Below the pieces are notes generated by a model. That model did no database searches and was not told where the DNA came from. It saw nothing but the letters and a program-made list of their open reading frames with translations. Of a stretch of DNA of 64,000 nt, positions 6,939 to 63,291 are shown piece by piece. Position 1 is the stretch's first letter. Each line of letters opens with the position of its first letter. The position numbers and the translations under genes were made by a program. The stretch is from Haloplanus vescus. GTDB lineage: Archaea; Halobacteriota; Halobacteria; Halobacteriales; Haloferacaceae. The DNA lies in the NCBI RefSeq assembly GCF_900107665.1, contig NZ_FNQT01000003.1, positions 124,001-188,000 of the forward strand. Direction: 5' to 3'.

Positions 6939-6950
6939 GTGTCGTTCGGA

Positions 6951-6958: not shown

Positions 6959-6968
6959 GTCTGCGCGG

Positions 6969-17867: not shown

Positions 17868-17947
17868 ACGCTCACGCTCCACCGGCGGCGACAAAAGCGA
17901 CCCGGTGCGGCCACAGGTATACGGCGCTCGACCGCGTCGAGGCGCGC

Positions 17948-45660: not shown

Positions 45661-45699
45661 CCCCGCCATTTAATCACCCTCTCCGTGCAGGGTATCCCC

Positions 45700-46917
45700 A
45701 TGACAGTCACTCTTGAGGATATCGAGGCGGCGCGCGCCCGATTCGACGACCCGGACATCGTCCGACAGACGCCAATCGAGACGAACCGTTCGCTCAGCAA
45801 GATGTCGGGCGGGGACGTCCACCTGAAGATGGAGCACCTCCAGCGGACTGGCTCGTTCAAGACGCGCGGCGCCTACAACAAACTGAAACAGGAGGCCGAG
45901 GACGGCAGCGACAAACACGTCGTCGCCGCCAGCGCCGGCAACCACGCACAGGGCGTCGCCCTCGCGGCCACGACGGTCGGTCTCGACTCGACCATCGTCA
46001 TGCCGACGAACGCCCCACAGGCCAAAATCGACGCCACCCGGAGCTACGGCGCCTCGGTCGAACTCCACGGTGCGAACTTCGGCGAGGCGATGAGCCACGC
46101 ACAGGCGATGGCCGAAGAGCCCGGTCGACTGTTCGTCCACGCCTACGACGACCCCGACATCGTCGCCGGACAGGGGACGCTCGGCCTCGAAATCTACGAG
46201 CAGGTACCCGACGTCGACACCGTCCTCGTCCCCATCGGCGGCGGCGGCCTCATCGGCGGCATCAGCACGGCGCTGAAGTCGCTCGACGATTCGGTGCGCG
46301 TCGTCGGCGTGCAGGCCGAGATGGCCGCGACGGTGCCAGACAGCCTCAACAAGGGCATCCCGGTCGACGAGGACTCGCCCAAGACAATCGCGGACGGCAT
46401 CGCCACGGGGAGCATCTCCGAACTCACGCTCGGGTTGATAGAGGAACACGTCGACGAGGTGGTGACGGTGAGCGACGACGAAATCGCCCAGAGCATCCTC
46501 ACGGTGCTCGAACGCGCGAAGCAGCTGATAGAGGGCGCGGGCGGGGCGTCGGTCGCCGCGCTGTTGAGCGACGAAATCGACGTCGAGGGCGAGACGGTCG
46601 TCCCCCTGCTCTGTGGCGGCAACATCGACATGTCGATGCTCCAGACGGTGCTGACACACGCCCTGACCGACCGCAGCCAACTCCTCCGCCTGCGCATCCG
46701 CATCCGCGACGAACCCGGCGAGATGGGTCGCATCTCGGGCATCATCGGCGACAAGGGGGCGAACATCCGGACGGTCAGACACGACCGCGCTGTCGGCGAC
46801 CTGCACGTCGGCGACGCCTACCTCGTCTTCCAGGTGCTCACGAGCGGTGAGAGCCACGCCACGAACGTCATCGGCGCCATCGAGGACGCCGGCTACGAAG
46901 TCGAGCGCGTCAACTGA
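45700..46917 (+). CDS. ilvA: Threonine ammonia-lyase (serine/threonine dehydratase) with ACT domain
   Basis: Deaminates threonine to 2-oxobutyrate for isoleucine synthesis and can act on serine. The 405-residue fold-type II PLP enzyme has Lys54 in SFKTRGA, the PLP-phosphate loop PIGGGGLIGG and the NHAQGVA cofactor segment. The C-terminal ACT regulatory domain is at about 325-403 (LLRLRIRIRDEPGEMGRISGIIGDKGANI). The CATTTAAT element about 30 nt before the ATG at 45700 favours this start over a GTG 15 bases earlier. Confidence 0.92.
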   Translation: MTVTLEDIEAARARFDDPDIVRQTPIETNRSLSKMSGGDVHLKMEHLQRTGSFKTRGAYNKLKQEAEDGSDKHVVAASAGNHAQGVALAATTVGLDSTIVMPTNAPQAKIDATRSYGASVELHGANFGEAMSHAQAMAEEPGRLFVHAYDDPDIVAGQGTLGLEIYEQVPDVDTVLVPIGGGGLIGGISTALKSLDDSVRVVGVQAEMAATVPDSLNKGIPVDEDSPKTIADGIATGSISELTLGLIEEHVDEVVTVSDDEIAQSILTVLERAKQLIEGAGGASVAALLSDEIDVEGETVVPLLCGGNIDMSMLQTVLTHALTDRSQLLRLRIRIRDEPGEMGRISGIIGDKGANIRTVRHDRAVGDLHVGDAYLVFQVLTSGESHATNVIGAIEDAGYEVERVN

Positions 46918-46964: not shown

Positions 46965-46974
46965 ATTATATAAC
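46965..46974 (+). promoter_or_regulatory. TATA box of the polyamine-type ABC operon
   Basis: ATTATATAAC gives a predicted transcription start near 46998 and a leader of about 80 nt. In the leader, a GACACG-ACGTC-CGTGTC inverted repeat (47046-47062) lies 18 nt before the potD-like start codon and could be an operator or an mRNA hairpin. Confidence 0.45.
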
Positions 46975-47080
46975 TTAAACGCCCGCACATAGCCTGCGTA
47001 ATGGTGATGCGTGACACTGTTGCACTCTCTACCGTAACGTGACCGGACACGACGTCCGTGTCAGGCACGAGTCGACTACT

Positions 47081-48313
47081 ATGACCAACGATCACGACCT
47101 CACGCGACGAACGTACCTGCGGGCGGCGGCTGCTGGCGCCGCGATGACCGGGGCGGCCGGTTGCCTCGGCGGCGGTGGCGGCGGCGGTAGCGAGGGGAAC
47201 AGCTGGCGAACACAAGAGCTCGCGACGGTCCCGGCGCCGGGTGACGCTGCACTCTACGAACCCACCGACCAAGACCAGACGGGCGAGACCATCAATCACC
47301 TCACCTGGACGGGGTACGACGCCTCGAACGTCCAAGGCCCGTTCCGGGAACAGTTCGACTGCCAGACGCAGTTGGACCTGTTCACGTCGAATCCGAAGGC
47401 ATTCAACCGGCTCCAGTCCGGCGAGTGGCAGCAGTTCCACCAAGCTACGTTCGACATGGCGTGGATTCCGCGCTTGGCCGAGGCGGGGCTGATTCGGCCC
47501 ATCGACTACGAGGACTGGAAGCCGTACACCTTCGACCAGTACATCGACCTGTTCAAGAAGGAGAACGGGTACAAGTACGCCTTCGTCAACGAGGACGACT
47601 ACACCTTCGACATCGACGGCACGATGTACGGCGCGCCCCAGCGGTTCGGGTGGGCCTCGTTCGTCGTCAACACCGACAACGTCTCCGAGGACGCCTACTC
47701 CAGCTACGACGCCGCGTGGTCCGACGAGTTCGAGGTCGGCATCTACGACCTGATGTTCTGGGGCATCCAGATTATCATGCTCCGCGAGGGCATCGACCCC
47801 TTCAAAGAGCACACCGAAGCCGAAGTCGAACAGGTCCGACAGGCCACCTTCGACCTCTTCGACAACGCGAAGACGCTCCTGCCCGACTTCGCCTCGATGA
47901 ATCAGGCGATGAAGTCCGGCGAAATCGACATCGGCTTCATCTCCGGCAACTGGATCAACGGGACGCTCCGCCGCGGTGGCAACATGCAGTTCGAGGCCGT
48001 CGTCCCGGAGGAGGGGAGCGTCATCTGGGTCGAGACGACAGCCTTCGTCAAGGGCGACCAGCCCACCGTCTCCGACAACTACCTCGCCTACATGCAGCGC
48101 GGCGAGAACGCGCTCAAGCTCTCCTGGCCCACCTCGGGTGGGACGAACGTCGTCCCCCACCAGACGGCGTGGGAGAACTACAACGACCGACAGCGCGAAG
48201 TGCTTCGCGTCGACGAAGTGCGGGACATCATCGACCGGTCGGTGTTCTACACCGGGATTCCGGATCTGGACAAGTTCGAGCCGATCTGGCGCGAAGCCAA
48301 GAGTCGACTCTGA
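47081..48313 (+). CDS. potD: Tat-exported lipoprotein, polyamine-type ABC substrate-binding protein
   Basis: A 410-residue solute receptor. The N-terminus TRRTYLRAAAAGAAMTGAAGC is a twin-arginine signal with lipobox AAGC, so the protein is exported folded and lipid-anchored. After a Gly-rich spacer the mature part resembles the PotD/spermidine-putrescine fold, with a typical hinge stretch (APQRFGWASFVVNTDN). The specific ligand is unknown. ATG at 47081, after a 14-codon in-frame extension that I reject because it precedes the twin-arginine motif. It heads the potD-A-B-C operon. Confidence 0.88.
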   Translation: MTNDHDLTRRTYLRAAAAGAAMTGAAGCLGGGGGGGSEGNSWRTQELATVPAPGDAALYEPTDQDQTGETINHLTWTGYDASNVQGPFREQFDCQTQLDLFTSNPKAFNRLQSGEWQQFHQATFDMAWIPRLAEAGLIRPIDYEDWKPYTFDQYIDLFKKENGYKYAFVNEDDYTFDIDGTMYGAPQRFGWASFVVNTDNVSEDAYSSYDAAWSDEFEVGIYDLMFWGIQIIMLREGIDPFKEHTEAEVEQVRQATFDLFDNAKTLLPDFASMNQAMKSGEIDIGFISGNWINGTLRRGGNMQFEAVVPEEGSVIWVETTAFVKGDQPTVSDNYLAYMQRGENALKLSWPTSGGTNVVPHQTAWENYNDRQREVLRVDEVRDIIDRSVFYTGIPDLDKFEPIWREAKSRL

Positions 48314-48339
48314 GCGGTCCTCGGCTGCGGCGATTATCA

Positions 48340-49401
48340 ATGTTACAGGCAACCGATCTACGGAAGGAGTATGGCTCGCTCGTCGCCGTCGACGATGTCG
48401 ACCTCGAAATCGAGACCGGCGAGTTCGCGACCATCGTCGGCCCGTCCGGGAGTGGCAAGAGTACGCTGTTGCACATGCTCGCCGGCCACCTCGAACCCAG
48501 CGGCGGGACGATTACGCTCGATGGGGAGGACATCACCGACACGAAACCACAGGAGCGCCCCACCAGCCTCGTCTTTCAGTCGTGGGCGCTGTTCCCCCAC
48601 ATGACCGTCCGGGAGAACATCGAGTTCCCGATTCGGACCACGGGGCGGTCGGTGGATGGGCAGGTGGAAACGCTGCTCGAACAGGTTCAGCTCGACCCCG
48701 AGGTGCAGGCGGACAAGCAGGTGTCGGAGCTCTCCGGCGGGCAGCGCCAGCGGGTCGCGCTCGCGCGTTCGCTCGCCTACGACCCCGACATCCTCTTGCT
48801 CGACGAACCGCTCGCGTCGCTCGACTACGTCCTGCAAAAACAGCTCCAGCGCGAACTCGCCGACCTGAACGTCGAACTCGACATGACGTTCGTCTACGTC
48901 ACACACTCGCTGGAAGCGGCGCTCGTGATGAGTGACAAGCTCTTCGTCATCGACGAGGGTGACCTGATTCAGACTGGTCCGCCCGAGGAAATCTACCGCG
49001 AACCGAACAACAAGTTCATCGCGGAGTTCATGGGCGACGCCAACGTCTTCGCCGTCGACGTCGTCGACAGCGACGGCGAGACAGTGACGGTCGACAGCGG
49101 CGAGTTCGAGGGGTCGGTGACGGTGTCGACACCTATCGACGACGCGCCCGAGTACCTCGTCGTCCGCCACGACGACTGTGTGGTCGAACCGACGCTCCGA
49201 CGCGCCGTCGGCGCACCCGTCCACGTCGACAACGTTCTCGTCCGCGGCAACACCGTCCTGGTCGAGTGTTCGTCGACCACTACCGACGACGACTACGTCG
49301 CCGAGGTGGACTACGACCACTTCGAATCGGTCGACATCGCGGTCGGTGATACCGCGTACATCCAGTGGGAGACCGAGAAATCGATTCTGGTGCCCGAGTG
49401 A
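48340..49401 (+). CDS. potA: ABC transporter ATPase, PotA-like
   Basis: A 353-residue ATPase of the spermidine/putrescine importer group. Walker A is GPSGSGKST (34-42), the signature is LSGGQRQRVALAR, and Walker B is ILLLDEP. The C-terminal TOBE domain (about 270-350) is present, as in PotA. Its TGA shares one base with the ATG of the permease gene. The gap of 26 bp to potD and the overlaps downstream indicate one operon. Confidence 0.93.
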   Translation: MLQATDLRKEYGSLVAVDDVDLEIETGEFATIVGPSGSGKSTLLHMLAGHLEPSGGTITLDGEDITDTKPQERPTSLVFQSWALFPHMTVRENIEFPIRTTGRSVDGQVETLLEQVQLDPEVQADKQVSELSGGQRQRVALARSLAYDPDILLLDEPLASLDYVLQKQLQRELADLNVELDMTFVYVTHSLEAALVMSDKLFVIDEGDLIQTGPPEEIYREPNNKFIAEFMGDANVFAVDVVDSDGETVTVDSGEFEGSVTVSTPIDDAPEYLVVRHDDCVVEPTLRRAVGAPVHVDNVLVRGNTVLVECSSTTTDDDYVAEVDYDHFESVDIAVGDTAYIQWETEKSILVPE

Positions 49402-50336
49402 TGTCCGCGCTAGATACGCTCCGCGGCCGGATGGACGCGGTGGCGACGAGTGACAACCCGCTTGCGACGCTCGTCACGCCCCCGTACGTTCTCTTGCTTC
49501 CGCTCGCGGTTCTGTTGCTCGTCATGTTCGTCGGCCCGATGGTCGCCATCGTGTTGTTCTCCGTCCAGCCGGGCAACGCCATCTCGCTGAACCCCGGGAC
49601 GTGGACGGTCGAACACTACGCCGAGATACTCGGCGGCATGGCGAGCGGCGAGGGGGTGTACGGCGACGTCCTCGTCAACACGGCCGCCGTGAGCGCCGTC
49701 ACCACCGTCGTGACGCTCGTGCTCTCCTACCCGGCGGCCTACGCGCTCGCCCGCAAAATCAAGCGGTACAAGACGGTGTTCTTGCTCGTGCTCATCATCC
49801 CCCTGTTCACGAGCGTGAACATCCGGGTGTTCGGATGGGCGCTCTTTCTCGTCAACAACGGCGTCCTCGAAAGCGTCGTCAGCCTGTTCGGCGTGTCGAA
49901 CTACCCCACGATGATGTACCAGCGGTGGACGATTATCCTCGGGACGACATACGTCTACATGCCGTTCATGCTGTTCCCCATCTACCTGTCTCTCCTCTCC
50001 ATCGAGGACGAGACTATCGCGGCGGCGCAGGACTTGGGCGCGAACCGGTGGACGCTCTTCCGGCGAATCGTCCTCCCGCTGAGCAAGCCCGGCGTCATCA
50101 TCGGCTCGCTGTTCGTGTTCATCCTCAGCCTCGGTGCCGACGTGGAGGCACAGATTCTCGGCGGTGGCTCGATTTTCACCATGGCGAGCAACATCAACTA
50201 CTCGTTCGGGTACAGTCAGAACTGGCCACTCGGTTCCGCACAGGCCGTCGGCCTCCTCATCATCACCGTCGTCTGCGGGGTCATCATTCTGCGGACGATC
50301 AATCTGAAGGAAATCGCGTCGCGAGGTGACGCATGA
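49401..50336 (+). CDS. potB: ABC transporter permease 1, PotB-like
   Basis: A 311-residue permease with six membrane helices and the cytoplasmic EAA-like loop AAQDLGANRWTLFRRIVLPLSKPG that contacts the ATPase. It overlaps potA by 1 base and potC by 4. ATG at 49401 is used; the upstream in-frame start lies within potA. Confidence 0.9.
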   Translation: MSALDTLRGRMDAVATSDNPLATLVTPPYVLLLPLAVLLLVMFVGPMVAIVLFSVQPGNAISLNPGTWTVEHYAEILGGMASGEGVYGDVLVNTAAVSAVTTVVTLVLSYPAAYALARKIKRYKTVFLLVLIIPLFTSVNIRVFGWALFLVNNGVLESVVSLFGVSNYPTMMYQRWTIILGTTYVYMPFMLFPIYLSLLSIEDETIAAAQDLGANRWTLFRRIVLPLSKPGVIIGSLFVFILSLGADVEAQILGGGSIFTMASNINYSFGYSQNWPLGSAQAVGLLIITVVCGVIILRTINLKEIASRGDA

Positions 50337-51139
50337 GCGCCGAATCCAGCACGCTGACCGACCGCCTCGGCGCCGGTGCGTGGTACGGCTACGTCGCCCT
50401 CGTGGCGCTCTTTTTCCTGACGCCGCTGTTCTCGCTCGTCATCGCCTCCTTCTACGACGGGCGCTTTTTCTCCATCGTCGACTACGAGTTCTCGCTCGAC
50501 TGGTACCGGGCGGCGCTCGCGTCGGGGAGCATCCGCTCTGCCTTCCTGAACACCGTCCGCATCTCGGTGCCGGTGACGATTCTGAGCACCATCATCGGCA
50601 CGGGCGGCGCTATCGCGTACACTCGCTACGAGTTCCCGTGGCAAGAGCAGTTCAAACTGCTCGCGCTCCTGCCCATCTTCTTCCCCCTCATCCTCCTCGG
50701 TCTCGGGATGTCGATGTGGTCGAGCGTCATCGGCCTCGGCTACGGCATCGTCCCGTCGATAATCGGCGAACTCGTCTGGATTTCGCCCATCGTCATGTTC
50801 GTCGTCTCCATCACCGCACTGGGTGTCGACCCCAACATCGAGGAGGCGGCGCGTGACCTCGGCGCCGACACCGTCACGCTCTACCGGGAGGTGACGCTTC
50901 CCCTCATCAAGGACGGCGTCGTCTCCGGCGCCATCTTCGCGTTCGTGCTCTCGTGGAACAACTACTACATCGTCTCCTATCTCTCCGGACCGCAGAGCAC
51001 GATTACGACGTGGATTCACGGCCGGATGACGCAGGGCTTTACGCCCGTCGTCCCCGCCGTAGCGTCGCTTATCTTCTACGTCTCGCTCCTCCTGGTCGTC
51101 GCCGCCTTCGTCGTCGAGTTCCGTGACGACGGTGAGTGA
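50333..51139 (+). CDS. potC: ABC transporter permease 2, PotC-like
   Basis: A 268-residue permease. Six helices, EAA loop AARDLGADTVTLYREVTLPLIKDG. ATGA overlap with potB. Both permeases keep the conserved Gly of the EAA loop, so the importer should be functional. A region rich in palindromes follows before the HTH_10 regulator. Confidence 0.9.
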   Translation: MSAESSTLTDRLGAGAWYGYVALVALFFLTPLFSLVIASFYDGRFFSIVDYEFSLDWYRAALASGSIRSAFLNTVRISVPVTILSTIIGTGGAIAYTRYEFPWQEQFKLLALLPIFFPLILLGLGMSMWSSVIGLGYGIVPSIIGELVWISPIVMFVVSITALGVDPNIEEAARDLGADTVTLYREVTLPLIKDGVVSGAIFAFVLSWNNYYIVSYLSGPQSTITTWIHGRMTQGFTPVVPAVASLIFYVSLLLVVAAFVVEFRDDGE

Positions 51140-51160: not shown

Positions 51161-51238
51161 CCGGATATATCCGGCTCGATTGGGCACAACCCGTAAATAT
51201 GTGGGTAGTCAATTGCCCACAACCACCACAGGGTGTGG
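51161..51238 (+). promoter_or_regulatory. Palindrome-rich operator region of the HTH_10 regulator
   Basis: Three symmetric elements lie between potC and the regulator gene: a perfect 14-base palindrome CCGGATATATCCGG (51161-51174) with a TATA core, TGTGGG-N10-CCCACA (51200-51221), and CCACA-GGG-TGTGG (51226-51238). A TATA-like GTAAATAT (51193-51200) predicts transcription from about 51222-51226, so the second and third elements would cover the start of transcription. The four TGTGG/CCACA half-sites suggest one dimeric regulator, possibly the gene's own product. Confidence 0.5.
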
Positions 51239-51242
51239 CTCG

Positions 51243-51938
51243 ATGCTCGAATACACATTCAGAATCAGACACGAGGGGTGTTGGACCGAGACGGTCGACG
51301 ACGCGTTCCCGGGCGTCGCGGCGACTATCATCTACTCTTATCGCTTGACTGGGACGAGCATCACGATGATTGAAGCGACGGGAATCGACGAGAGCCGGGT
51401 CGACGCGCTGGTGGAGTGGCTTGGCGACCACGAGGTCATGACCTCGGCCCAGTTGGTCAGCTACCACGAGGGGCGGGACACGGCGTTCATCAGCCTCGAG
51501 GGCGACTATCGCACCGACACCGAACCCGTGTTGAACGTCCTCCTGCGGAACAACTGCTTCCCGACGATTCCCGCCACCGTCTCCAACGGGCGCGAACACT
51601 GGAGCGTCCTCGCCTCCACACGCGAGGAGGTGAGCACGACTCACGAAGAGCTCCGGGCCATCGGCTCCGTCGAGGTTGACGCGCTCCGACAGCCGGAACT
51701 CGGCCGACTCCTCACGGGCTTGACGGAGATTAAACAGGCAGTCCAAGACCTCTCGCCCCGGCAGACCGAGGTGCTCGCCCGCGCTATCGAACACGGCTAC
51801 TACGACTCGCCCCGCGGCTGCAACATCGAAGAACTCGCGGCGATGGATTCGGCGAACACCTCGACGGTCGGCGAACACCTCCGTCGCTCGGAAGCGAAGA
51901 TTCTGGAGGCGGTCGGGTCGATGCTGACCCAGACCTAG
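51243..51938 (+). CDS. Bacterio-opsin-activator-like HTH_10 regulator of the amine cluster
   Basis: A 231-residue regulator: an N-terminal sensor-like half (MLEYTFRIRHEGCWTETVDDAFPG) with no obvious cofactor motif, then HTH_10 (LSPRQTEVLARAIEHGYYDSPRGCNIEELAAMDSANTSTVGEHLRRSEAKIL). It lies between the ABC operon and the glutamine-synthetase-like gene, so it is the natural candidate regulator of both. ATG at 51243 is used; the 40 codons upstream cover the operator region. Its 3' end overlaps the convergent GS gene by 4 bases. Confidence 0.87.
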   Translation: MLEYTFRIRHEGCWTETVDDAFPGVAATIIYSYRLTGTSITMIEATGIDESRVDALVEWLGDHEVMTSAQLVSYHEGRDTAFISLEGDYRTDTEPVLNVLLRNNCFPTIPATVSNGREHWSVLASTREEVSTTHEELRAIGSVEVDALRQPELGRLLTGLTEIKQAVQDLSPRQTEVLARAIEHGYYDSPRGCNIEELAAMDSANTSTVGEHLRRSEAKILEAVGSMLTQT

Positions 51939-53257
51939 AACTCGTCGCTGTACTCCGCTCGCTCCCACTCCGTGACCGAATCCATGTAGCGGTCGAACTC
52001 GTCGCGTTTGAGCTTCAGGAACTCCTCGACCAGCGGCTCACCGAGCGCTTCCGTCAGCACCTCGTCGGCCTCCAGTTCGTCCAGCGCCGCCCAGAGGGTT
52101 CGAGGGAGCCTGTCGTAGTCCTCCTCGTAGGCGTTGGCGAGCGTCGGCTCGCCCGGGTCGGTCTCGTTTCGAATCCCGTCCAGCCCCGCCGCGAGCGTCG
52201 CCGCCAGCCCTAGGTAGGGGTTGCACGACGAGTCGGGTACTCGGTGTTCGACTCGGGCCGCCGACCCGAGTTCCGGCGGGATGCGGAGGACCGTCGAGCG
52301 GTTGTCCGGTCCCCACGCGACGTTGACGGGCGCCCAGATACCCGGCAGGAGGCGACGGTAGGAGTTCACCGTCGGCGCACAGAGCGCGGTGAGCGCCTGC
52401 ATGTGGTCGAGCAAGCCGCCGATGAAGTGGTGAGCCGTCTCGGAGAGGCCTGAGTCTCCCTCCGGGTGCTTTCCCGCCGGGAACTGCAGGTTCCCCGTCT
52501 CGCTGGCGAACAGGTTCTCCCCGACCGACTCGTCCCAGAGACTGAGGTGGAAGTGCAGGCCGTTGGCGTCTTCGCCCGAGTAGGGGCGGGGCATGAACGA
52601 CGCTCGATAGCCGCGCTCGCGGGCGATGGCCTTCGCAGCGTGCCGGAAGAACATGAGCGAGTCCGCGGTGGTGAGGGCGTCGTCGTACTGGACGTTCACC
52701 TCGAACTGACCGGGTTGGGACTCCTGATGGACGCCGAGCATCGACGCGCCCGCCGTCTCCATCGCGTCCGACCACGCTCGAACGATGCCGTCCGCGCCGT
52801 CGAGTGCCGTCATGTCGTACGAGCACCGGGTGTTGTAGGGCTCCCAGTCGCCCTCGCCGTCGGGTTTGAGCAGGGAGAACTCGGCTTCGACGCCGGCGAG
52901 GGGGACGAACCCTTCGTCGCGCACATCGTCGACGACGCGGCGGAGCGCGCTCCGCGAACAGAGGTCGAACGCCGAGCCGTCGACGTTCGTCAGATTCGAG
53001 AAGACGGCGGCGGTGTCGTCGGTCCACGTAATCTCGCGCAGCGAGTCGGGGTCCGCGACGGCCAGCATGTCGCCCCCTTCCGCCCCGTAGCGCGGGTCGT
53101 CGAGCAGTCCCGGTTCCAGCGTGAGCTCCGCGACGCCGTTGGCGAAGCCGACGCCCTCGTCGACGGCCGCTTCGTACTCGCTCGCCGGTAACGAGATGCC
53201 GCGCGCGACGCCGTTCAGGTCCGTCCAGACCAGTCGAACCCGGTCGTATTCGGTCAT
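51935..53257 (-). CDS. Glutamine synthetase-family gamma-glutamylamide ligase (PuuA/GlnA4-like)
   Basis: A 440-residue GS-fold ATP-dependent ligase. The opening WTDLNGVARGISLP and the HESQPGQFEVNVQYDDAL and NGLHFHLSLWDES segments fit the PuuA/GlnA4-type subgroup rather than ordinary GS, which would read differently around the Asp/Glu ammonium-binding residues. PuuA glutamylates putrescine; GlnA4 glutamylates ethanolamine. The neighbours (polyamine-type importer, aldehyde dehydrogenase, metallohydrolase, iron alcohol dehydrogenase) support such a catabolic ligase. It is transcribed alone, opposite to its neighbours. Confidence 0.85.
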   Translation of the reverse strand: MTEYDRVRLVWTDLNGVARGISLPASEYEAAVDEGVGFANGVAELTLEPGLLDDPRYGAEGGDMLAVADPDSLREITWTDDTAAVFSNLTNVDGSAFDLCSRSALRRVVDDVRDEGFVPLAGVEAEFSLLKPDGEGDWEPYNTRCSYDMTALDGADGIVRAWSDAMETAGASMLGVHQESQPGQFEVNVQYDDALTTADSLMFFRHAAKAIARERGYRASFMPRPYSGEDANGLHFHLSLWDESVGENLFASETGNLQFPAGKHPEGDSGLSETAHHFIGGLLDHMQALTALCAPTVNSYRRLLPGIWAPVNVAWGPDNRSTVLRIPPELGSAARVEHRVPDSSCNPYLGLAATLAAGLDGIRNETDPGEPTLANAYEEDYDRLPRTLWAALDELEADEVLTEALGEPLVEEFLKLKRDEFDRYMDSVTEWERAEYSDEF

Positions 53258-53314
53258 TGCAATAGTATACCAACCACGCTACCTCCTGATAGCGATTCAC
53301 CCGTGTACTTACGA

Positions 53315-53331
53315 GTGACTAAGTAGGTCAC
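53315..53331. promoter_or_regulatory. Inverted repeat between divergent GS-like and aldehyde dehydrogenase genes
   Basis: GTGAC-N7-GTCAC is centred in the 153-bp divergent promoter region: 58 nt from the GS-like ATG and about 80 nt from the aldehyde dehydrogenase ATG. It is a candidate shared operator. A GTATAAAC element (53350-53357) may be the TATA box of the dehydrogenase operon. Confidence 0.4.
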
Positions 53332-53410
53332 ACGCCCTCACGCCCCCGACGTATAAACGACCGCACATCCGGTGGACAACCCTTAGGCCGGGTCGCGGGG
53401 GAATCGTCGC

Positions 53411-54862
53411 ATGGAGAATCAGGCGTACGACCTGTTGATCGACGGAACGCGGCGACAGGCCGCGTCGACGCTCGCAGTCGAGAACCCGGCGACCGGCGAG
53501 ACGGTCGGTCGCGTGGCGAAAGGCGACGCGGCCGACGCTGCCGCGGCCATCGACGCCGCCGCCGCTGCGGCCCCGGCGTGGGCCGAGAGCGCGCCCGGCG
53601 AGCGCGAAGCACCGCTTCACGCCGTCGCCGATGCCATCGAGGCGGACGACGAACTCGCGACGCTCCTCGCGGCCGAGGCGGGCAAACCCCTCGCCACCGC
53701 CGAGGGCGAAGTCGCCGAGACAGCGGCGCAGTTCCGCTTCTACGCGGGTGTGACCGACAAGGTTCGTGGCGACACGATTCCGACGGCGACGAACCGCTTT
53801 GCCTACACCAAGCGCTCGCCCTACGGCGTCACCGCCCACGTCGTCCCGTGGAACTACCCGCTCTTGCTCGGGACGCGCGGGTTCGCGAGTGCACTCGCGA
53901 CGGGGAACACGCTGGTCGTCAAGCCGCCGAGTAACGCCCCTCTCTCGACGATGCGCGTCGGCGAGATGCTCGACGACGCCTTCCCCGACGGCGTCGTCAA
54001 CGTCGTCCCCGGGCCGGGGAGCGAGGTGGGTGCGGAACTCGCGGGCAGCGCCGGCGTCGACGCCATCACCTTCACCGGGTCGACGGGCGTCGGTCGGGGC
54101 GTCCTCGAAGCCGCGGCAGAGCACATCACGCCCGTCGACGTCGAACTCGGGGGGAAGGCCCCCGCCATCGTCCTCCCCGACGCCGACGTGGAGAACGCCG
54201 CCCGTGGCGTCGTCGCCGGCATCTTCTCGAACGCCGGTCAGAACTGCGTCGCCACCTCTCGGTGTCTTGTTCACGAGGATATCCACGACGAACTCGTCGA
54301 CCGAGTCGTCGAGAAGACCCGGCGGATTACGCTCGGCGAGGGAACCGACCCCGAGACGGACATGGGCCCGGTCATCTCCGAGGACGCGCAGGCGGAGGTC
54401 CTCGACTACATCGACTCCGCCCGCGACGAGGGCGCGACGCTCCTCACGGGCGGCGAGGTGCCCGACGACCCCGCCCTCGCCGACGGCCACTTCGTCGAGC
54501 CGACGGTGTTCGACGACGTGACCCCCGACATGACCATCGCGTGCGAGGAGATTTTCGGGCCGGTGCTGGGCTTCGTCACCGTCTCCTCCGCCGAGGAGGC
54601 AATCGAGGTGGCGAACGACTCGCCGTTCGCACTCGCGGCGTCGCTGTGGACAGAGTCCATCGACGCGACCCGAATCGCGGACCGACTGGACCACGGCCTC
54701 GTCGCCGTCAACACCTTCCCGGTGTCGATGCCACAGAGTCCGTGGGGCGGGAACAAGGAAAGCGGCATCGGGCGCGAGGGCGGCTTGGAGGGCGTCGAAG
54801 CCTTCACCACCGTCGACAGCGTCGTCGTCGAACACGACGACATCGGAGAGCCGTATGAGTGA
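53411..54862 (+). CDS. NAD(P)-dependent aldehyde dehydrogenase
   Basis: A 483-residue class ALDH. Catalytic Cys279 is in NAGQNC, the general base Glu245 in ELGGKAP, Asn148 in PWNYP and Lys171 in the cofactor site. All catalytic residues are intact. The substrate could be a gamma-glutamylated amino aldehyde, by analogy with PuuC. It overlaps the next gene by 8 bases (ATGAGTG), so it is translationally coupled to the M81 hydrolase. Confidence 0.92.
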   Translation: MENQAYDLLIDGTRRQAASTLAVENPATGETVGRVAKGDAADAAAAIDAAAAAAPAWAESAPGEREAPLHAVADAIEADDELATLLAAEAGKPLATAEGEVAETAAQFRFYAGVTDKVRGDTIPTATNRFAYTKRSPYGVTAHVVPWNYPLLLGTRGFASALATGNTLVVKPPSNAPLSTMRVGEMLDDAFPDGVVNVVPGPGSEVGAELAGSAGVDAITFTGSTGVGRGVLEAAAEHITPVDVELGGKAPAIVLPDADVENAARGVVAGIFSNAGQNCVATSRCLVHEDIHDELVDRVVEKTRRITLGEGTDPETDMGPVISEDAQAEVLDYIDSARDEGATLLTGGEVPDDPALADGHFVEPTVFDDVTPDMTIACEEIFGPVLGFVTVSSAEEAIEVANDSPFALAASLWTESIDATRIADRLDHGLVAVNTFPVSMPQSPWGGNKESGIGREGGLEGVEAFTTVDSVVVEHDDIGEPYE

Positions 54863-56327
54863 GACGGTCCTCGTCGGCCAGATAGAACACGAGACGAACA
54901 CGTTCTCGTCGTTCGAAACGGGGCTGGCCGAGTTCGCGGACGCGTCGCTCCACTACGGTGACGACGTCATCGCCGACCTGGGCGGGACGAACACGGCGGT
55001 CGGGGGCTTCCTCCGCGTCGCCGACCGCGAGGACTGGGACGTGGTGCCGACCGTCGCCGCCGACGCCACGCCGGGCGCCCCCGTCACCGCCGAGGCCCGC
55101 GAGACACTGCTCGACGAGGTGCTCGCGGGAATCGAGCGGACCGACCCCGACGGCGTCCTGTTGGCGCTTCACGGGGCGATGGTGAGTGACGGCGTCAGCG
55201 ACGGCGACGGGTACATCCTCGACCAGGTGCGCCGCGCCGTCGGTCCCGACGTGCCCGTGATGGCGTCACTCGACCTCCACGCCAACGTCTCGGACCGGAT
55301 GGCCCGTCACGCGGACGGCCTGTTCGGCTACGACACGTACCCACACGTCGACATCGGCGATACGGGCGAGACGGCGGCGCAGGCGATGGCCGCGACGCTC
55401 CGTGGTGACCTCGACCCGACGGTGGTCGTCGAGCGCGCGCCCCTTCTCCCGCCGCTTCCCGAGCTTCGGACGGAACTCGACCCGATGCGCTCGCTACTCG
55501 CGGCGGCCGCCGAAGCGGAAGGCGACCAGCTGCCCGACGTGTCGGTGTTCGGTGGCTTCGCACAGGCCGACGTGGCTCACGCCGGCTTCTCGGTCGTCGG
55601 CGTCGCCGACCAGTCAGTCGCCGACGACGCCCGTGAGACGTGTCGGGGCCTCGCGGACGAGGCCTACGACCGGCGCCACGAGTTCGACCGCGAGTACACG
55701 AGCGTCGCCGACGCGGCGTCGCGAGCGGCGTCGTGGGACGGCGACGACCCCATTCTCCTCGCGGACATCTCCGACAATCCCGGCGGCGGGAGCGCACAGG
55801 ACGGCACGGCGTTGCTCGCGGCCCTCCTTGACGCTGGCGTCGAGGACGCGGCGCTGGCGACGATTTACGACCCTGCGACGGTCGACGCGGCAGTCGAGGC
55901 GGGTGTCGGTGAGACGGTATCCGTGTCGCTCGGCGGGACGAGCGGCGAGACTGGCGAGCCGCTGGACGTGACGGGGCGGGTGCGTCTCCTCTCGGACGGG
56001 GCCTATCGCAACTACGGCCCAATGTCGACCGGACTTCGGGTCTCCTTCGGGCGGACGGCCTGCCTCGAAATCGACGGAATCGACGTGCTCGTCGGCTCGC
56101 ACCGCCAACAGCCGTACGACCCCGAGGCCTTCCGGAGCCAGGGACTCACGCCCGAGCGTGCGAATGTCCTCGTCCTCAAGAGCACGGTCCACTATCGGGC
56201 GGCGTTCGAGCCACTCGTCGACGAGGTGTGTGAGGTGGCGACCCCCGGTCTCTGTAGCCCCGACCTCTCGGCCTTCGCGTACGAGAACGTCCCGCGACCC
56301 ATCTACCCGCTCGACGAGGACGCGTAG
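54855..56327 (+). CDS. M81/MlrC-like metallohydrolase
   Basis: A 490-residue homologue of microcystinase C, a family of amide hydrolases. Asp140 and His142 (LDLHAN), plus His164 in YDTYPHVD, match the zinc ligands Asp167, His169 and His191 of MlrC in identity and in spacing. LLALHGAMV precedes them. The substrate is unknown; in this context a gamma-glutamyl amide is plausible, giving glutamate plus an amino acid. Coupled to the upstream aldehyde dehydrogenase gene. Confidence 0.88.
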   Translation: MSETVLVGQIEHETNTFSSFETGLAEFADASLHYGDDVIADLGGTNTAVGGFLRVADREDWDVVPTVAADATPGAPVTAEARETLLDEVLAGIERTDPDGVLLALHGAMVSDGVSDGDGYILDQVRRAVGPDVPVMASLDLHANVSDRMARHADGLFGYDTYPHVDIGDTGETAAQAMAATLRGDLDPTVVVERAPLLPPLPELRTELDPMRSLLAAAAEAEGDQLPDVSVFGGFAQADVAHAGFSVVGVADQSVADDARETCRGLADEAYDRRHEFDREYTSVADAASRAASWDGDDPILLADISDNPGGGSAQDGTALLAALLDAGVEDAALATIYDPATVDAAVEAGVGETVSVSLGGTSGETGEPLDVTGRVRLLSDGAYRNYGPMSTGLRVSFGRTACLEIDGIDVLVGSHRQQPYDPEAFRSQGLTPERANVLVLKSTVHYRAAFEPLVDEVCEVATPGLCSPDLSAFAYENVPRPIYPLDEDA

Positions 56328-56477
56328 TCGCGCGCGCGACTTAACGGCCCGTCGATATGTGACACAACCGCCTTGCGCCGAAGCGGGAACGTATACCACA
56401 CGCGGCGGTCACGCCATCTCGCGCACGCGCCGCACGCAAGACCGTGGCTCTCCCACGGCGACAGGACTTCACGCATT

Positions 56478-57668
56478 ATGACAGCGACTCACCAGATGTG
56501 GAACGTACCGAATCGAATGCTCTTCGGCTGGGGTGCGGTGGCCGAAATCGGCGACTATCTCGACGAATTCGACGCCGAGCACCCACTCGTCGTCACCGAC
56601 GAGGGCGTTCGGGCGGCGGGCGTCCTCGACCCCCTCCTCGACGCTATCGAGGAATCGGGGCGGACCTACACCGTCTACGATGGCGTCCAGCCAGACCCGA
56701 CGGACGTAATCGTTCACGACGCCGCGGCGGCCTACGACGAGGCGGGCGCCGACCTCGTGTTGGGTGTCGGCGGCGGGTCCTCCATCGACACGGCGAAAGC
56801 TGCGAGCATCCTCGCGACCAACGACGGCCACATCCTCGATTTCGAGGGGAGTGGCAACGTCCCCAACGACCCGCCACCGAGCGTGTTCGTCCCGACGACG
56901 GCGGGCACGGGGAGCGAAGTCGGCCACTGGACCATCGTCAAGGACTCCGAGACATCCATCAAGGAGGAAATCGGTGACGTGAGCCTGCTGGCAGACCTCG
57001 CGCTTGTCGACCCGCAGTTGACGGCGAGCGCGCCCGCCCCCGTCAAGGCCGCGACGGGGATGGACGTGCTGACCCACGCCGTCGAAGCCTCCGTCTCCAT
57101 CAAGGCCCAGAGCCAGACCTCGGCGCTCGCAATCGACTCCATCGAGAAGGTCGGCACCTACCTGCCGCGAGCGGTCGAGTATCGCGGCGGCGACCGCGAG
57201 GCGCTGTCGAAGATGGCGCGCGCGAGTTCGCAGGCCGGCATGGCCTTCAACGGCGCGGGACTCGGCGCCGTCCACGCCCTCTCGCATCAGGTCGGCGGCA
57301 CCTTCGGCGTCCCGCACGGCCTGGCCAACGCCATCCTCCTCCCGTACGTGATGGAGTACAACCTGCCGCAGGTGCCCGAGGAGATGGTGGCCATCGCGTC
57401 GGCGCTCGGCGAGGACATCGACCCCGCGAAACCGGCGCGAGCGGAGGCGACGAAGGCGGTCGACGCGGTGCGCCGCCTCGCGGACGACGTCCGGATTCCC
57501 GAGACCCTCGCGGAGACGGCGGCGGAGCGCGAAGCGGTCCCGCGCTTGGCGGAGCAGGCGATGGACGACGGCTCGCTCACGGGCAATCCGCGAGCGACCG
57601 ACGCCGACGACCTCGCCGCCATCCTCGAACGTGCGTTCGACGGGCAGTTCGAGACGATACAGCGATGA
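56478..57668 (+). CDS. Iron-type alcohol dehydrogenase
   Basis: A 396-residue group III (Fe-dependent) alcohol dehydrogenase. NAD loop GVGGGSSIDTAKA, metal ligands in GMDVLTHAVE, ALSHQVGG and GVPHGLANA. Such enzymes oxidise small alcohols, glycerol or amino alcohols. It follows the M81 gene after a 150-bp gap that includes a GTATACC element near 56391, so it may have its own promoter. ATG at 56478; 35 upstream codons are not conserved. Confidence 0.9.
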   Translation: MTATHQMWNVPNRMLFGWGAVAEIGDYLDEFDAEHPLVVTDEGVRAAGVLDPLLDAIEESGRTYTVYDGVQPDPTDVIVHDAAAAYDEAGADLVLGVGGGSSIDTAKAASILATNDGHILDFEGSGNVPNDPPPSVFVPTTAGTGSEVGHWTIVKDSETSIKEEIGDVSLLADLALVDPQLTASAPAPVKAATGMDVLTHAVEASVSIKAQSQTSALAIDSIEKVGTYLPRAVEYRGGDREALSKMARASSQAGMAFNGAGLGAVHALSHQVGGTFGVPHGLANAILLPYVMEYNLPQVPEEMVAIASALGEDIDPAKPARAEATKAVDAVRRLADDVRIPETLAETAAEREAVPRLAEQAMDDGSLTGNPRATDADDLAAILERAFDGQFETIQR

Positions 57669-57731: not shown

Positions 57732-59057
57732 ATGCCGTACGCGACTCACTCCGCGGCCGAACGGGCCGCGATGCTCGACGCCGTCGGCGTCGACGACCCC
57801 GACGACCTGTTCGACGTACCCGACTCGGTTCGGTTCGACGACGAGTACGGAATCGAGGCCCGGTCGGAGCGGGCGACCCGCGCGACGGTCGAGGGGGCCC
57901 TTGAGGACTCCGCGGACATGGTCGAGTTCCTCGGCGGCGGTCACTACGACCACTACGTCCCCTCGGTTGTCGACCACCTCTCGCTTCGCTCGGAGTTTCT
58001 CACGAGTTACACGCAGTACCAACCCGAGGTCACGCAGGGCTTCTTGCAGGCGCTCTTCGAGTTCCAGTCGCTCGTCGTCGAACTCACCGGTCTCGGCGTC
58101 GCCAACTGTTCGATGTACGACCGCGCGACGGCGCTCGGCGAGGCGGCGCTCCTCGCCGACCGGGTGCGCGCCGTCGACGGCGACCGAGTGCTGGTGCCCG
58201 ACTCTCTCCCCGACCGGGTGCGGTCCGTCCTCGACAACTACACCGACGGCCCGGACATCGGCGTCGACACCTACCCCACCAGTTCGGGTACGGTCGACGT
58301 GGACGCCCTCGCCGACTCCATCGACGACGACGTGTCGATGGTGTACGCCGCGACGCCGAACGCACGCGGCCTGCTCGAACCCGACCTGTCTGCCGTCGGC
58401 GACGTGGCCGACGACCACGACGCCCTGTTCTGTGTCGGCACCGACGCCGTGGCGCTGGGACTGCTCGAACCCCCGGCGGCCTACGGCGCAGACGTCGTCG
58501 TCGGCGACGCGAGCGTCCTCGGTCTCCCGACCACCTACGGGATGGGCCTCGGCCTCTTCGCCTGCCGCGAGGACTACCTGCGGCAGGTCCCTGGCCGCCT
58601 CGTCGGCGCCGGCGAGGACGCCGCAGGCAACCGCGCCTACACCCTGACGCTCCAGACGCGCGAACAGCATATCCGCCGGGAGCGTGCCACCTCGAACATC
58701 TGTACGAATCAGGCGTGGCTGGCGCTCCGGGCGGCGATGCACGCCGCGTGGCTCGGCCCCGACGGCCTCGTCGAGTTGGCCGAAACCTGTGTCACTGGGG
58801 TTTCCGACGCCTGCGAGCGCATCGACGCTCTCGACGGGTTCACTGCCCCCGTCTACGACGGCCACCACTTCCGCGAGGCGCTGGTGAACTGCGCCGACCC
58901 CGACGCCGTCGTCGAGCACTGCCGCGACGAGGGGGTCGCGCTCCGCACCGTCGCCGACGGCGACGACGAGTATCTCGCCGTCTGTGTGACCGACACCAAC
59001 CGCGAGCAGGTCGATGCGTTGGTCGACGCCCTCGCGGGCTACGGGGGTGGCGAATGA
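57732..59057 (+). CDS. gcvPA: Glycine dehydrogenase (decarboxylating) subunit 1, P-protein alpha
   Basis: The N-terminal half-subunit of the glycine cleavage P-protein, which decarboxylates glycine and transfers aminomethyl to lipoylated GcvH. The 441-residue protein shows [48 protein letters not shown] and [30 protein letters not shown], all P1 signatures. It lacks the PLP lysine, which is in GcvPB. gcvT and gcvH, commonly upstream in haloarchaea, are replaced here by the amine cluster. Confidence 0.94.
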
Positions 59058-60487
59058 GCGACGACGCCGACGGCGACGTCCCCCACCAGCAGGCGCGCTG
59101 GTTCGCGGGCGAGCAGTACGAACCCCTGCTCTCCGAGAAGCGAACCGAGACGGTCGAGGTAGACTCCTCGCTCCCGGACGACCTGACGCGGGACGAACTC
59201 GAACTCCCGGCGCCCGCGGAACCGGAGTTGGCGCGTCACTACACGCACCTCTCGCAGATGAACTACGGCGTCGAATCTGGCCCCATCCCGCTGGGGTCGT
59301 GTACGATGAAGTACAACCCCTCGTTCACAGAGGACATCGCCGCTCACCCGGGCAACCGCGTGCATCCGCTCCGGGACGACGCCGACAAACAGGGGATTCT
59401 CCGCCTCTGTCACGAGCTACAGGACGCCCTCGCGACCATCGGCGGGATGGATGCGGTGACGCTCCAACCGCCCGCGGGCGCCGCGGGCGAGTTCACGGGC
59501 ATCCAGGTGGCGAAAGCCTACCACGCCGCCGAAGACGACGAGCGCAGCGAGGTCATCGTCCCCGAGTCCGCCCACGGAACCAACTTCGCCAGCGCGGCGA
59601 TGGCCGGCTACGACGTGGTCGAACTCCCCTCGAACGAGAACGGGCGCGTCGAGGTGGACGCGTTGCGGGCGGCGGTCGGGTCTGAGACGGCGCTCCTGAT
59701 GCTCACCAACCCCAACACGCTGGGGTTGTTCGAGCGCGATATCGGGGAAATCGCCGACATCGTCCACGACGCTGGCGGACTCCTCTACTACGACGGGGCG
59801 AACCTCAACTCCCTGCTCGGGAAGGCCCGCCCCGGCGACATGGGCTTCGACGTGATGCATTTCAACCTGCACAAGACGTTCGCGACGCCTCACGGTGGCG
59901 GTGGGCCGGGACAGGGCCCCATCGGCGTCCGGGCCGACCTCGAACCTTTCCTCCCCACGCCGCAGGTCCGCGAAACCGACGCGGGGTACGAGACTTACGC
60001 CCCCGCCCAGAGCATCGGGCGCGTCCACGAGTTCTTGGGCAACTGGCTGGTGCTGGTGAAGGCGTACGCCTACATCCTCCGCCACGGCGACGAGGGCCTC
60101 GAACGCGTGAGCGAAACGGCCGTCCTCAACGCCAACTACCTCGCTTCCCAGATAGATTACGAGGTGCCCTACGGCCCGTTCCACCACGAGTTCGTCGCGA
60201 GTGCAGACGCCGACGCCGCGGACGTGGCGAAGGCGATGCTCGACCACGGCGTCCACCCGCCGACGACGAAGTGGCCCGAAATCGTCGACGAGGCGTTGAT
60301 GACCGAACCGACCGAGACGGAGTCGAAGGCGCGACTCGACGACTTGGCGGCGGCGTTCGACGCCGTCGCTGCGACCGACCCCGAGGACTTGGCCGAGACG
60401 CCGACGGCGACGGCGGCCCGGCGCATCGACCAGGCCGCGGCGGCCCGGACCCCCCGGCTCTCGTGGCACGCCCTCGACGAGGAGTAG
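59054..60487 (+). CDS. gcvPB: Glycine dehydrogenase (decarboxylating) subunit 2, P-protein beta
   Basis: The PLP-binding half-subunit of the P-protein. Lys274 in [19 protein letters not shown] is the Schiff-base residue; [15 protein letters not shown] and [12 protein letters not shown] are further signatures. 477 residues. ATGA overlap with gcvPA indicates stoichiometric translation. The in-frame opening to 58715 is an overlap of gcvPA and not used. Confidence 0.94.
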
Positions 60488-60558
60488 CCGGCTTCACTTT
60501 TAGGGATATTTTGTGATGGACCCTGCTACTTAACTGGGTGTTCGCCATGGTGTGTTGC

Positions 60559-61812
60559 GTGACACCGACGCATACGCACCTTCGGGACACCGACCCCGAT
60601 GTCGCCGAAGCCATCGCTGGAGAGGAGCGCCGTCAGGAGAACAACTTGGAGATGATCGCCTCGGAGAATCACGTCTCCGAAGCGGTGATGGAGGCCCAGG
60701 GAAGCGTCATGACGAACAAGTACGCGGAGGGCTATCCGGGCGAGCGCTACTACGGTGGCTGCGAGCACATGGACACCGTCGAGAACCTCGCCATCGACCG
60801 CGCGAAGCAGCTGTTCGGCGCCGAGCACGTCAACGTCCAGCCCCACAGCGGGACGCAGGCGAACATGGGCGTCTACTTCGCGATGCTCGACCCGGGCGAC
60901 AAGATCATGTCGCTCGACCTGAACCACGGCGGCCATCTGAGCCACGGCCACCACGTCAACTTCTCCGGTCAGCTCTACGAGGTCGAACAGTACGGCGTCG
61001 ACCCCGAGACGGGCTACATCGACTACGACGAGGTAGCGGAGCAGGCCGCCGAGTTCGGCCCCGACATCATCGTCAGCGGGTCCTCGGCATACCCCCGCGA
61101 GTTCGAGTGGGACCGCCTCTCCGCCATCGCCGACGACGTCGACGCCCACCACCTCGCCGACATCGCCCACATCACCGGGCTGGTGGCCGCGGGGATTCAC
61201 TCCTCGCCGGTCGGCTCCGCCGACTTCGTCACCGGGAGCACGCACAAGACCATCCGCGCCGGCCGCGGCGGGATGATAATGACGACCGACGAGCACGCCG
61301 ACGCGGTGGACAAGGCCATCTTCCCCGGCGGGCAGGGCGGCCCCCTGATGCACAACATCGCGGGCAAAGCGGTCGGCTTCGGCGAGGCACTCGAATCCGA
61401 CTTCGTCGACTACGCGGAGCAGGTGGTCTCCAACGCCAAGACGCTCGCCGACGTGTTCACCGACGCGGGCATCCAGCCAGTCTCCGGCGGCACGGACAAA
61501 CACCTCCTCCTCCTCGACCTGCGCGAGTCCCACCCCGACCTGACGGGCGAGGAGGCCGAGGACGCCCTCGACGACGTGGGCATCACCGTCAACAAGAACA
61601 CGGTGCCCGGCGAGACGCGGTCGCCGTTCGTCACCAGCGGCATTCGCGTCGGGACGCCCGCGCTCACCACCCGTGGCTTCGACGACGACGCCATGGCGAC
61701 GGTGGGCGAGCTCATCGTCGAACGCCTGAACAACCCCGACGACGCGGACGTGGCGAGCGAGATTCGGGACGAGGTCGACCGCCTCTGTGCCGAGTTCCCC
61801 GTCTACGAGTAA
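60559..61812 (+). CDS. glyA: Serine hydroxymethyltransferase
   Basis: Interconverts serine and glycine with folate (or a pterin) one-carbon units. PLP Lys230 in [30 protein letters not shown] and [11 protein letters not shown] are conserved. The start is uncertain. GTG at 60559 gives a family-like N-terminus ([13 protein letters not shown]) and lies 25-34 nt after a CTACTTAACT TATA-like element (60525-60534), fitting a leaderless mRNA. ATG at 60547 and an earlier in-frame GTG at 60538 are alternatives. It sits 72 bp after gcvPB, an arrangement that couples glycine cleavage to serine. Confidence 0.92.
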
Positions 61813-61842
61813 GGCGTATAAACGCCCGCCAATCGCCGCCAG

Positions 61843-61849
61843 TATTTAT
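61843..61849 (+). promoter_or_regulatory. TATA box of lpdA
   Basis: TATTTAT ends 26 nt before the ATG at 61876; a leaderless transcript is predicted, so lpdA has its own promoter besides the upstream genes. Confidence 0.55.
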
Positions 61850-61875
61850 CCCTGCGGCCCCCGCGTCGTGTAGGC

Positions 61876-63291
61876 ATGGTCGCTACCGAAGCCACGACGG
61901 ACCCCGAGGTACTGGTCATCGGCGCGGGACCGGGCGGCTACGTCGCCGCCATCCGTGCCGCACAGCGCGGCCTCGACGTGACGCTGGTCGAACGCGACGC
62001 CCTCGGCGGCGTCTGCCTCAACCGTGGCTGTATCCCCTCGAAGGCGTACGTCACGGCGACCGACGTGGCCCACGACGCCGCGACGGCGGAGGAGATGGGT
62101 ATCCACGCCGACCCCGTCGTCGACCTCGCGGCGATGTGTGACTGGAAAGACGGCGTCGTCGACCGACTCACCGGCGGCGTCGAGAAACTCTGCAAGGCAA
62201 ACGGCGTCACCCTCGTCGAGGGCACGGCGTCGTTCGTCGACGGCGAGACGGTGCGGGTCGACGACGGCGACGAGACGGACACGCTCTCTTTCGACCACTG
62301 CATCGTCGCCACCGGGAGTCGCCCCCTCGAACTGCCGGGCTTTCCGTTCGCCGCCGACCCCGTCCTTGACGCGGCGGCGGCGCTCGAACTGTCTTCCGTC
62401 CCCGACCGCCTCGTCGTCGTCGGCGCGGGCTACATCGGGATGGAGCTGTCGACGGTGTTCGCGAAGCTCGGGACCGACGTGACCATCGTGGAGGCACTCG
62501 ATAGCGTCCTGCCGGGCTACGAGGACGACGTGGCGCGCGTGGTGCGAAAGCGTGCCGAGTCGCTGGGCGTCGACTTCCACTTCGGGGAGCGCGCGACGGG
62601 GTGGCGCGACGCCGCCGACGGCGGTATCGTCGTCACTACCGAGTCCGACGACGGCACGGAGTCGACCCACGGCGCCGACCGCGTCCTCGTCGCGGTGGGG
62701 CGAACGCCCGTCACCGACGCGCTCGACCCCGAGAACGCGGGGCTCGAGCCGACCGAGAACGGCGCACTCGAGACGGACGAGCGCTGCGAGACGGCGGTGG
62801 ACGGCATCTACGCCGTCGGCGACGTGGCGGGCGAACCGATGCTCGCCCACGTCGCGTCGGCCGAGGGCGTCGTCGCCGCGGAGGCCATCGCCGGTGAGCC
62901 TGCGGCGTTCGACGCGCAGGCGATTCCCGCCGCGGTGTTCACCGACCCCGAGATTGCGACGGTCGGCCTGACCGAATCGGAAGCCGAGGCGGAGGGGTTC
63001 GACCCCGTCGTGGGCGAGATGCCGCTTCGGTCCAGCGGGCGGGCGCTCACCACGGGCGACACCGAGGGGTTCGTCCGCGTCGTCGCCAGCGCGGACGGCT
63101 TCCTCATCGGCGCCCAAATCGTCGCCCCCGAGGCGTCAGAACTGATAGCGGAGCCGACTCTCGGCATCGAGATGGGGGCGACGCTGGAGGACGTGGCGGC
63201 TACGATTCACACCCACCCGACCCTCTCCGAGGCGGTGATGGAGGCCGCCGAAAACGCACTCGGGCAGGCCATCCACACGCTCAACCGATAG
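61876..63291 (+). CDS. lpdA: Dihydrolipoyl dehydrogenase (E3 / glycine-cleavage L-protein)
   Basis: Reoxidises dihydrolipoyl groups of 2-oxoacid dehydrogenase E2 and GcvH. The 471-residue protein has FAD motif GAGPGGYVAAIRA, redox Cys47 and Cys52 in GGVCLNRGCIPSK, the NAD Rossmann stretch VVGAGYIGMEL, and the C-terminal HTHPTLSEAV with the catalytic His-Glu. Position after gcvPAB-glyA suggests use as L-protein; it could also serve the E2 encoded earlier in the window. Confidence 0.95.
   Translation: MVATEATTDPEVLVIGAGPGGYVAAIRAAQRGLDVTLVERDALGGVCLNRGCIPSKAYVTATDVAHDAATAEEMGIHADPVVDLAAMCDWKDGVVDRLTGGVEKLCKANGVTLVEGTASFVDGETVRVDDGDETDTLSFDHCIVATGSRPLELPGFPFAADPVLDAAAALELSSVPDRLVVVGAGYIGMELSTVFAKLGTDVTIVEALDSVLPGYEDDVARVVRKRAESLGVDFHFGERATGWRDAADGGIVVTTESDDGTESTHGADRVLVAVGRTPVTDALDPENAGLEPTENGALETDERCETAVDGIYAVGDVAGEPMLAHVASAEGVVAAEAIAGEPAAFDAQAIPAAVFTDPEIATVGLTESEAEAEGFDPVVGEMPLRSSGRALTTGDTEGFVRVVASADGFLIGAQIVAPEASELIAEPTLGIEMGATLEDVAATIHTHPTLSEAVMEAAENALGQAIHTLNR

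Follow-up and report, generated by a model that had tools for sequence, protein, structure and literature searches.

Known systems and the gene cluster

Bat, DmsR and NarO of haloarchaea are HTH_10 regulators, and the Bat site lies upstream of the bop TATA box. For NarO, an effect on nar and dms is described (PMC10062603). In archaeal TrmB homologues, binding downstream of the TATA box is described as inhibiting polymerase recruitment (PMC10817205). The haloarchaeal genomes that we searched had numerous HTH_10 proteins, with many matches per genome, and few have a known operator in the literature examined.

Bacteria have a gamma-glutamylation route for ethanolamine, described for GlnA4 and the repressor EpuRI of Streptomyces coelicolor (PMC6529630) and for the EtoX/ETAGA operon of Phaeobacter (PMC10132767). 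It leads from ethanolamine through gamma-glutamylethanolamide, the aldehyde and gamma-glutamylglycine to glutamate and glycine. What the locus presented here has in common with these systems, as the two reports describe them, is a glutamine synthetase (GS)-like ligase, dehydrogenases for the alcohol and the aldehyde, a predicted hydrolase step, a transporter and a regulator encoded locally; its predicted product is glycine. Unlike them, it is haloarchaeal and has an iron-containing alcohol dehydrogenase (Fe-ADH) as the dehydrogenase, an M81-type protein in the hydrolase role, an ABC transporter, glycine cleavage and serine hydroxymethyltransferase genes in line, and a regulator of the HTH_10 type, while some sister clusters have the ethanolamine ammonia-lyase EutB instead. 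A haloarchaeal GS-like amine ligase is on record as well: GlnA-2, the glutamate-putrescine ligase of Haloferax mediterranei, which is alike by description and is placed between MATE and ABC transporter genes, near glnA-3 (PMC8394153). In the titles and abstract openings of the open-licence PMC literature we found no description of the operator, or of a haloarchaeal glutamylation route for ethanolamine, which is weak evidence of novelty.

The window, meaning the whole 64-kb stretch of DNA that was analysed, contained the following cluster genes:

47039-51139, + strand: ABC transporter (substrate-binding protein, ATPase, two permeases; PotABC-like), by domain searches
51243-51938, + strand: regulator gene, 231 aa, with HTH_10 at residues 170-222 (Pfam PF04967, 3e-13)
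51935-53257, - strand: GS-like ligase, candidate gamma-glutamylethanolamide synthetase (Pfam Gln-synt_C, 4.6e-105; below all NCBIfam cut-offs)
53411-54862, + strand: aldehyde dehydrogenase (ALDH; Pfam Aldedh, 6.6e-160)
54855-56327, + strand: M81/MlrC-type hydrolase (Pfam DUF1485 and MlrC_C)
56478-57668, + strand: Fe-ADH (Pfam Fe-ADH, 3.1e-49)
57732-63291, + strand: two glycine cleavage P genes, serine hydroxymethyltransferase and lipoamide dehydrogenase, by domain searches

The genes for the GS-like ligase and for the alcohol and aldehyde dehydrogenases stand together, and the M81/MlrC-type protein was the only candidate present for the role of gamma-glutamylglycine hydrolase. Most orthologous loci kept the order substrate-binding protein (SBP), PotA, PotB, PotC and regulator, then the convergent GS-like gene, then ALDH and M81. 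The transporter proteins missed the Pot cut-offs widely, with 284.2 against 355.6 bits or 273.2 against 482 bits for PotA, 154.1 against 348 bits for PotB and 110.3 against 326 bits for PotC. Sister clusters had the same regulator, the GS-like gene and mostly the same transporter, together with EutB under the same promoter box. Rather than a simple importer of polyamines, the cluster seems to encode a haloarchaeal pathway that handles ethanolamine by gamma-glutamylation. Ethanolamine appears to be a better guess for the substrate than polyamines, because the genes match the bacterial route, the sister clusters carry EutB and the Pot models are missed widely. These findings suggest a misleading PotABC-like annotation for the transporter, and ethanolamine use by haloarchaea along the glutamylation route described for bacteria. 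Next to the cluster, in this genus as well as in G079, G210 and G483, lies a threonine dehydratase-like gene with an ACT domain (45685-46917 in the window).

The regulator was the only transcription factor recognized in the cluster. We aligned 24 orthologues, 23 from the main searches plus one more (G483), and the start codon was conserved; a 46%-identical match in G499 was not counted as an orthologue. The C-terminal HTH_10 domain was confirmed (PF04967), also in two distant orthologues, and is shared with Bat, DmsR and NarO; among these four regulators, the domain search covered the present one. Unlike these three, the protein has no sensor domain recognized by Pfam, and the boxes described below overlap or follow the TATA box instead of preceding it. 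NCBIfam gave no name for the protein. The AlphaFold model was poor (mean pLDDT 58.9, HTH part <50) and gave no reliable fold match, and by sequence there was no clear solved relative. For the N-terminal part, two beta-alpha-beta-beta-alpha-beta units were suggested by modelling.

A shared box at the promoters of the cluster

The SBP, GS and ALDH promoters shared a TATA-anchored box of ~34 bp, TATAAACAnCCGCAnATnnnCGGSnnAAnGnTnA, beginning at the TATA box. It was also found before the Fe-ADH and lipoamide dehydrogenase genes and, in sister clusters, before EutB. The boxes in the window are:

46974-47010, + strand: full box before the SBP gene, by the box models
53287-53323, - strand: full box before the GS-like gene, by the box models
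53352-53388, + strand: full box before the ALDH gene, by the box models
56340-56376, + strand: full box before the Fe-ADH gene, present in 17/17 orthologous promoters and found by profile R2, whose training includes it
61817-61841, + strand: box before the lipoamide dehydrogenase gene (R2, E 0.017), never in training and likely the fifth box of the regulon, with a similar stretch in three other congeners

We used two profiles, R1, a sequence-only box profile, and R2, a wider one; in the window scan, R2 listed five boxes, at 46975, 53352, 53289, 56341 and 61817. Box recognition was evaluated with a whole promoter class removed from training, the TATA part removed, and the 99th percentile of 598 window tiles as threshold. 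The left-out class was found in 20/20 SBP, 17/24 GS, 8/17 ALDH, 16/17 Fe-ADH and 6/7 EutB upstream regions. With respect to the training sets, 10 of 51 boxes were left out of A4 as near-duplicates, A6 had 46 boxes, and the PWM had 76, omitting two of the 17 Fe-ADH boxes (G146 and G147), for which the stretch was too short. Four GS promoters of f7 genomes were left out of the joint EM, and L031-L033 were left out as the same contigs, judged by length, as G146, G148 and G150.

Symmetric elements before the regulator gene

The gap between potC, the second permease gene, and the regulator gene is 103 bp. The elements in it, including those derived below, are:

51161-51174, no strand: perfect 14-bp palindrome CCGGATATATCCGG; site A, the predicted second operator core, 30 bp upstream of site B
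51190-51206, + strand: site B, predicted operator core CCCGTAAATATGTGGGT, which covers the regulator's TATA box
51194-51199, + strand: TATA box TAAATA of the regulator gene, the only strongly conserved feature of the orthologous upstream regions
51200-51221, no strand: TGTGGG-N10-CCCACA inverted repeat, right arm without conservation
51226-51238, no strand: CCACA-GGG-TGTGG inverted repeat, without conservation

The first-pass annotation had described three symmetric elements within 51161-51238 as a dense palindromic operator. All three were in place, at 51161-51174, 51200-51221 and 51226-51238, the first as a perfect palindrome, and a CCACA-N12-TGTGG pair was nested at 51217-51238. Their density was less telling, the crowding being only mildly unusual against shuffles and other stretches of the window. 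A palindrome of the same length occurred in 21 of 2000 shuffles of the 103-bp intergenic; 64 of 2000 equalled its inverted-repeat count and 16 of 2000 its summed arm length. Among 2556 other 103-bp stretches of the window, 458 reached the inverted-repeat count of the gap and 303 its summed arm length. A single 14-bp palindrome is ordinary in 64 kb, because the window had 15 perfect palindromes of at least 14 bp, against a mean of 13 in 30 dinucleotide shuffles. A pattern search of the rest of the window gave no second copy of this one. Symmetry by itself is thus weak evidence for an operator in the gap; what decides is conservation, together with how well the gap matches an operator derived independently.

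A 16-nt direct repeat, TCGATTGGGCACAACC and TCAATTGCCCACAACC, at 51176-51191 and 51209-51224 (33 nt apart), flanks site B. The right copy was not kept in the congeners, and a pattern search of the window gave no third copy at three or fewer mismatches.

Conservation of the regulator promoter

We searched 11 other genomes of the genus, of which G010, G002 and G008 kept the regulator, at 87-94% identity; together with the present genome they make up the four congeners referred to here. The longest invariant block across the four upstream regions was AAnCCGTAAATATGTGGG, matching the limits of the operator core, and site B was kept in all four. Loss of the palindromes from close relatives that keep the gene had been named beforehand as refuting an operator, and the outcome for the 14-bp palindrome was divided: it was absent in G002 and G008 and kept in G010 with two mismatches, as CCGCACATATCCGG. 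As a core, site A was kept in two of the four congeners, with a similar upstream site in one genome of another family (G443). The core scores were 15.8 bits for the aligned site in G010, which lies 28 bp from site B instead of 30 bp as here, and 16.1 bits for the site in G443.

The two TGTGG/CCACA elements did not hold up as operator parts. At one to two mismatches, both were missing from the 23 other orthologous upstream regions, except for one poor match in G222. G010, G002 and G008 all lacked the CCACA-GGG-TGTGG element and the right arm CCCACA; of the two elements, they kept only the left arm TGTGGG, as part of the core overlapping the TATA box. Both pairs are probably due to chance, because they are absent from the congeners. 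An action of the elements as RNA was also considered: CCACAGGGTGTGG in the leader would fold and hide a weak Shine-Dalgarno-like GGGTG. The element does lie 5-17 nt before the start codon, but at one mismatch it was missing from the upstream regions of all 23 other orthologues, and G008 has AGGAGGATCG at that place; we rejected this explanation as highly improbable.

A predicted operator core at the TATA box of the regulator gene

The operator-core consensus, CCGnAnATnnnnGG, is quasi-palindromic. The core model was the 17-nt core of the 76 boxes from other genes, none of them from a regulator promoter. With this model, site B (51190-51206) scored 16.2 bits, rank 1 of the 127,968 positions on both strands of the window, and the palindrome at site A (51161-51174) scored 11.7 bits, rank 8. 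Without any choice of sub-window, R2 placed 51188-51205 sixth in the window, right after the five true boxes, at E 2.4; R1 did not list the region of site B in the window scan even at E up to 10. None of 246 TATA-like control sites reached the score of site B, and the best controls included boxes absent from training. None of 1238 tiles equalled the gap for nearly all core sub-windows of up to 18 nt spanning CCG...GG, a test that is partly post hoc because the R2 match at 51188-51205 had been seen and prompted the choice of the core window.

The second-best core match of the window (17910-17926, 14.3 bits) lies outside the cluster.

In none of the four congeners, nor in G443, did any of 500 shuffles of the same promoter reach the core score. 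Across the 24 orthologous regulator promoters, the core was found in eight at the 5% level and in five at the 1% level. It was not evident in most of the more distant orthologues, and the shuffle test gave nothing in the regulator promoters of the Halobellus, f7 and f17 orthologues. Promoters of paralogous HTH_10 genes, used as control, had the core in 1/23 cases at the 5% level and in 0/23 at the 1% level (paralogue L008 was left out of the shuffle tests). The core alone separated the box classes weakly, with 5/20 SBP, 5/24 GS and 1/17 ALDH promoters found at the 5% level when the class was left out.

The full box was absent from the regulator's own promoter, which had the core. As a class, the regulator promoters lacked the full box, with 3/24 at the 5% level against shuffles and a median rank of 52 of 100. 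A gapped box exceeded 95% of tiles in 12/24 of them, yet reached the 5% level against their own shuffles in only 3/24. In the upstream regions of the 23 orthologues from the main searches, conservation before the regulator was mainly that of the BRE/TATA region and amounted to 16.5 bits, against 32, 22 and 31 bits before SBP, GS and ALDH.

These data bear on a rival explanation, in which the regulator acts on the transport and catabolic genes by way of the boxes, but its own gene is read constitutively from an ordinary BRE/TATA promoter. The core match would then be accidental, owing to AT-richness, and the palindromes would be chance as well. The lack of the full box as a class, the restriction of conservation across families to the TATA region and the commonness of 14-bp palindromes in this GC-rich window all agree with this explanation. 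Against it, site B outscores every other position of the window in the core scan as well as each of the 246 TATA-like controls, and the core is conserved in four congeners and present in a separate family (G443); we hold the explanation to be unlikely. The reading that we prefer, with a probability of about 0.6, is that the HTH_10 regulator controls its own gene through two quasi-palindromic cores 30 bp apart, and that the same core would serve at the other promoters of the cluster.

The regulator promoter probably carries the regulator's own operator, in two predicted core copies (sites B and A), because the core taken from the other genes of the cluster scores highest here in the window. The regulator probably controls both the ethanolamine genes and itself, because its likely site precedes both, with the longer form before the pathway genes.

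Site B covers the TAAATA box, and therefore bound regulator should exclude TBP/TFB, giving negative autoregulation. The comparison of promoters supports such predicted autoregulation for this genus, mainly through site B. Negative autoregulation, possibly by the regulator itself, had been proposed in the first-pass annotation from the palindromes. The presence of the regulator's own predicted operator core agrees with that proposal, with sign and binding inferred; the main site moved to 51190-51206, between the elements originally named. Bound at site B, the regulator would lower its own expression by competing with TBP/TFB. Site A may offer a further contact from almost the same side of the helix, 30 bp being close to three helical turns. 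At the other cluster promoters, where the core and the conserved right half lie just downstream of the TATA box, bound regulator would block RNA polymerase. Release of the regulator from these promoters would be brought about by the substrate, for which ethanolamine or a glutamylated derivative is the likeliest candidate. As in the haloarchaeal TrmB regulons described in PMC10817205, one motif is expected to set the sign of control by its position relative to TATA. The present regulator differs from TrmB in protein family and in its local regulon, and TrmB is reported in that description to be without autoregulation in vivo.

Distribution of the box across genomes

In each of the four genus genomes with the regulator, R1 gave three matches at E <0.05, and in seven of the eight without it there were none. 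The eighth, G001, had three relic boxes beside a decayed cluster, in which the SBP match (residues 4-227) directly adjoins the GS match (3-381), and neither PotABC nor the regulator gave a match. On the G001 contig L091 (~5000-11400), the truncated SBP and GS matches face each other and the ALDH match is split into two frames, while the boxes remain.

In 19 other orthologue-bearing genomes, 41/43 R1 matches were inside the cluster, seven of these preceding genes outside the three training classes, namely Fe-ADH, EutB and an amino-acid-type permease. R1 missed three genomes that belong to a single family (G359, G432 and G448), all of which R2 matched. A sample of 392 genomes had 24 with an R1 match at E <=0.05, and 15 of these were among the 19 with an orthologue. 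The remaining nine, without orthologue, compare with ~19 expected by chance in 373 genomes, and the cluster was missing from the neighbourhoods of their R1 matches. Genome-wide, the box is nearly confined to the cluster.

The HTH_10 protein as binder, the ligand and the sign of control are all inferred; the reasons for the binder are linkage, co-occurrence and its being the only regulator recognized in the cluster. Another, unlinked factor, e.g., a global nitrogen regulator, might instead read the boxes and the core here, as many genomes have several HTH_10 paralogues. This is rather improbable given that the strong boxes are nearly confined to the cluster, that they track the regulator in the genus as described above, and that the HTH_10 protein is the sole transcription factor recognized beside them.

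With the HTH_10 protein as the predicted binder, one HTH_10 regulator now has a predicted operator, a predicted regulon and a probable substrate at the sequence level, and its sites are directly testable. A broader and more tentative reading, to which we give slightly less than even odds, is that a haloarchaeal ethanolamine regulon is defined by one HTH_10 regulator and one operator, with autoregulation through the core at the regulator's TATA box. The same transporter-regulator-ligase cassette would then be wired to two unrelated routes, either gamma-glutamylation to glycine (Fe-ADH, ALDH, M81, glycine cleavage) or EutB.

In the sister clusters L061, L063, L064, L066, L068, L069 and L070, EutB replaces ALDH, Fe-ADH and M81, and a box precedes EutB. 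L070 has a box before a permease gene as well.
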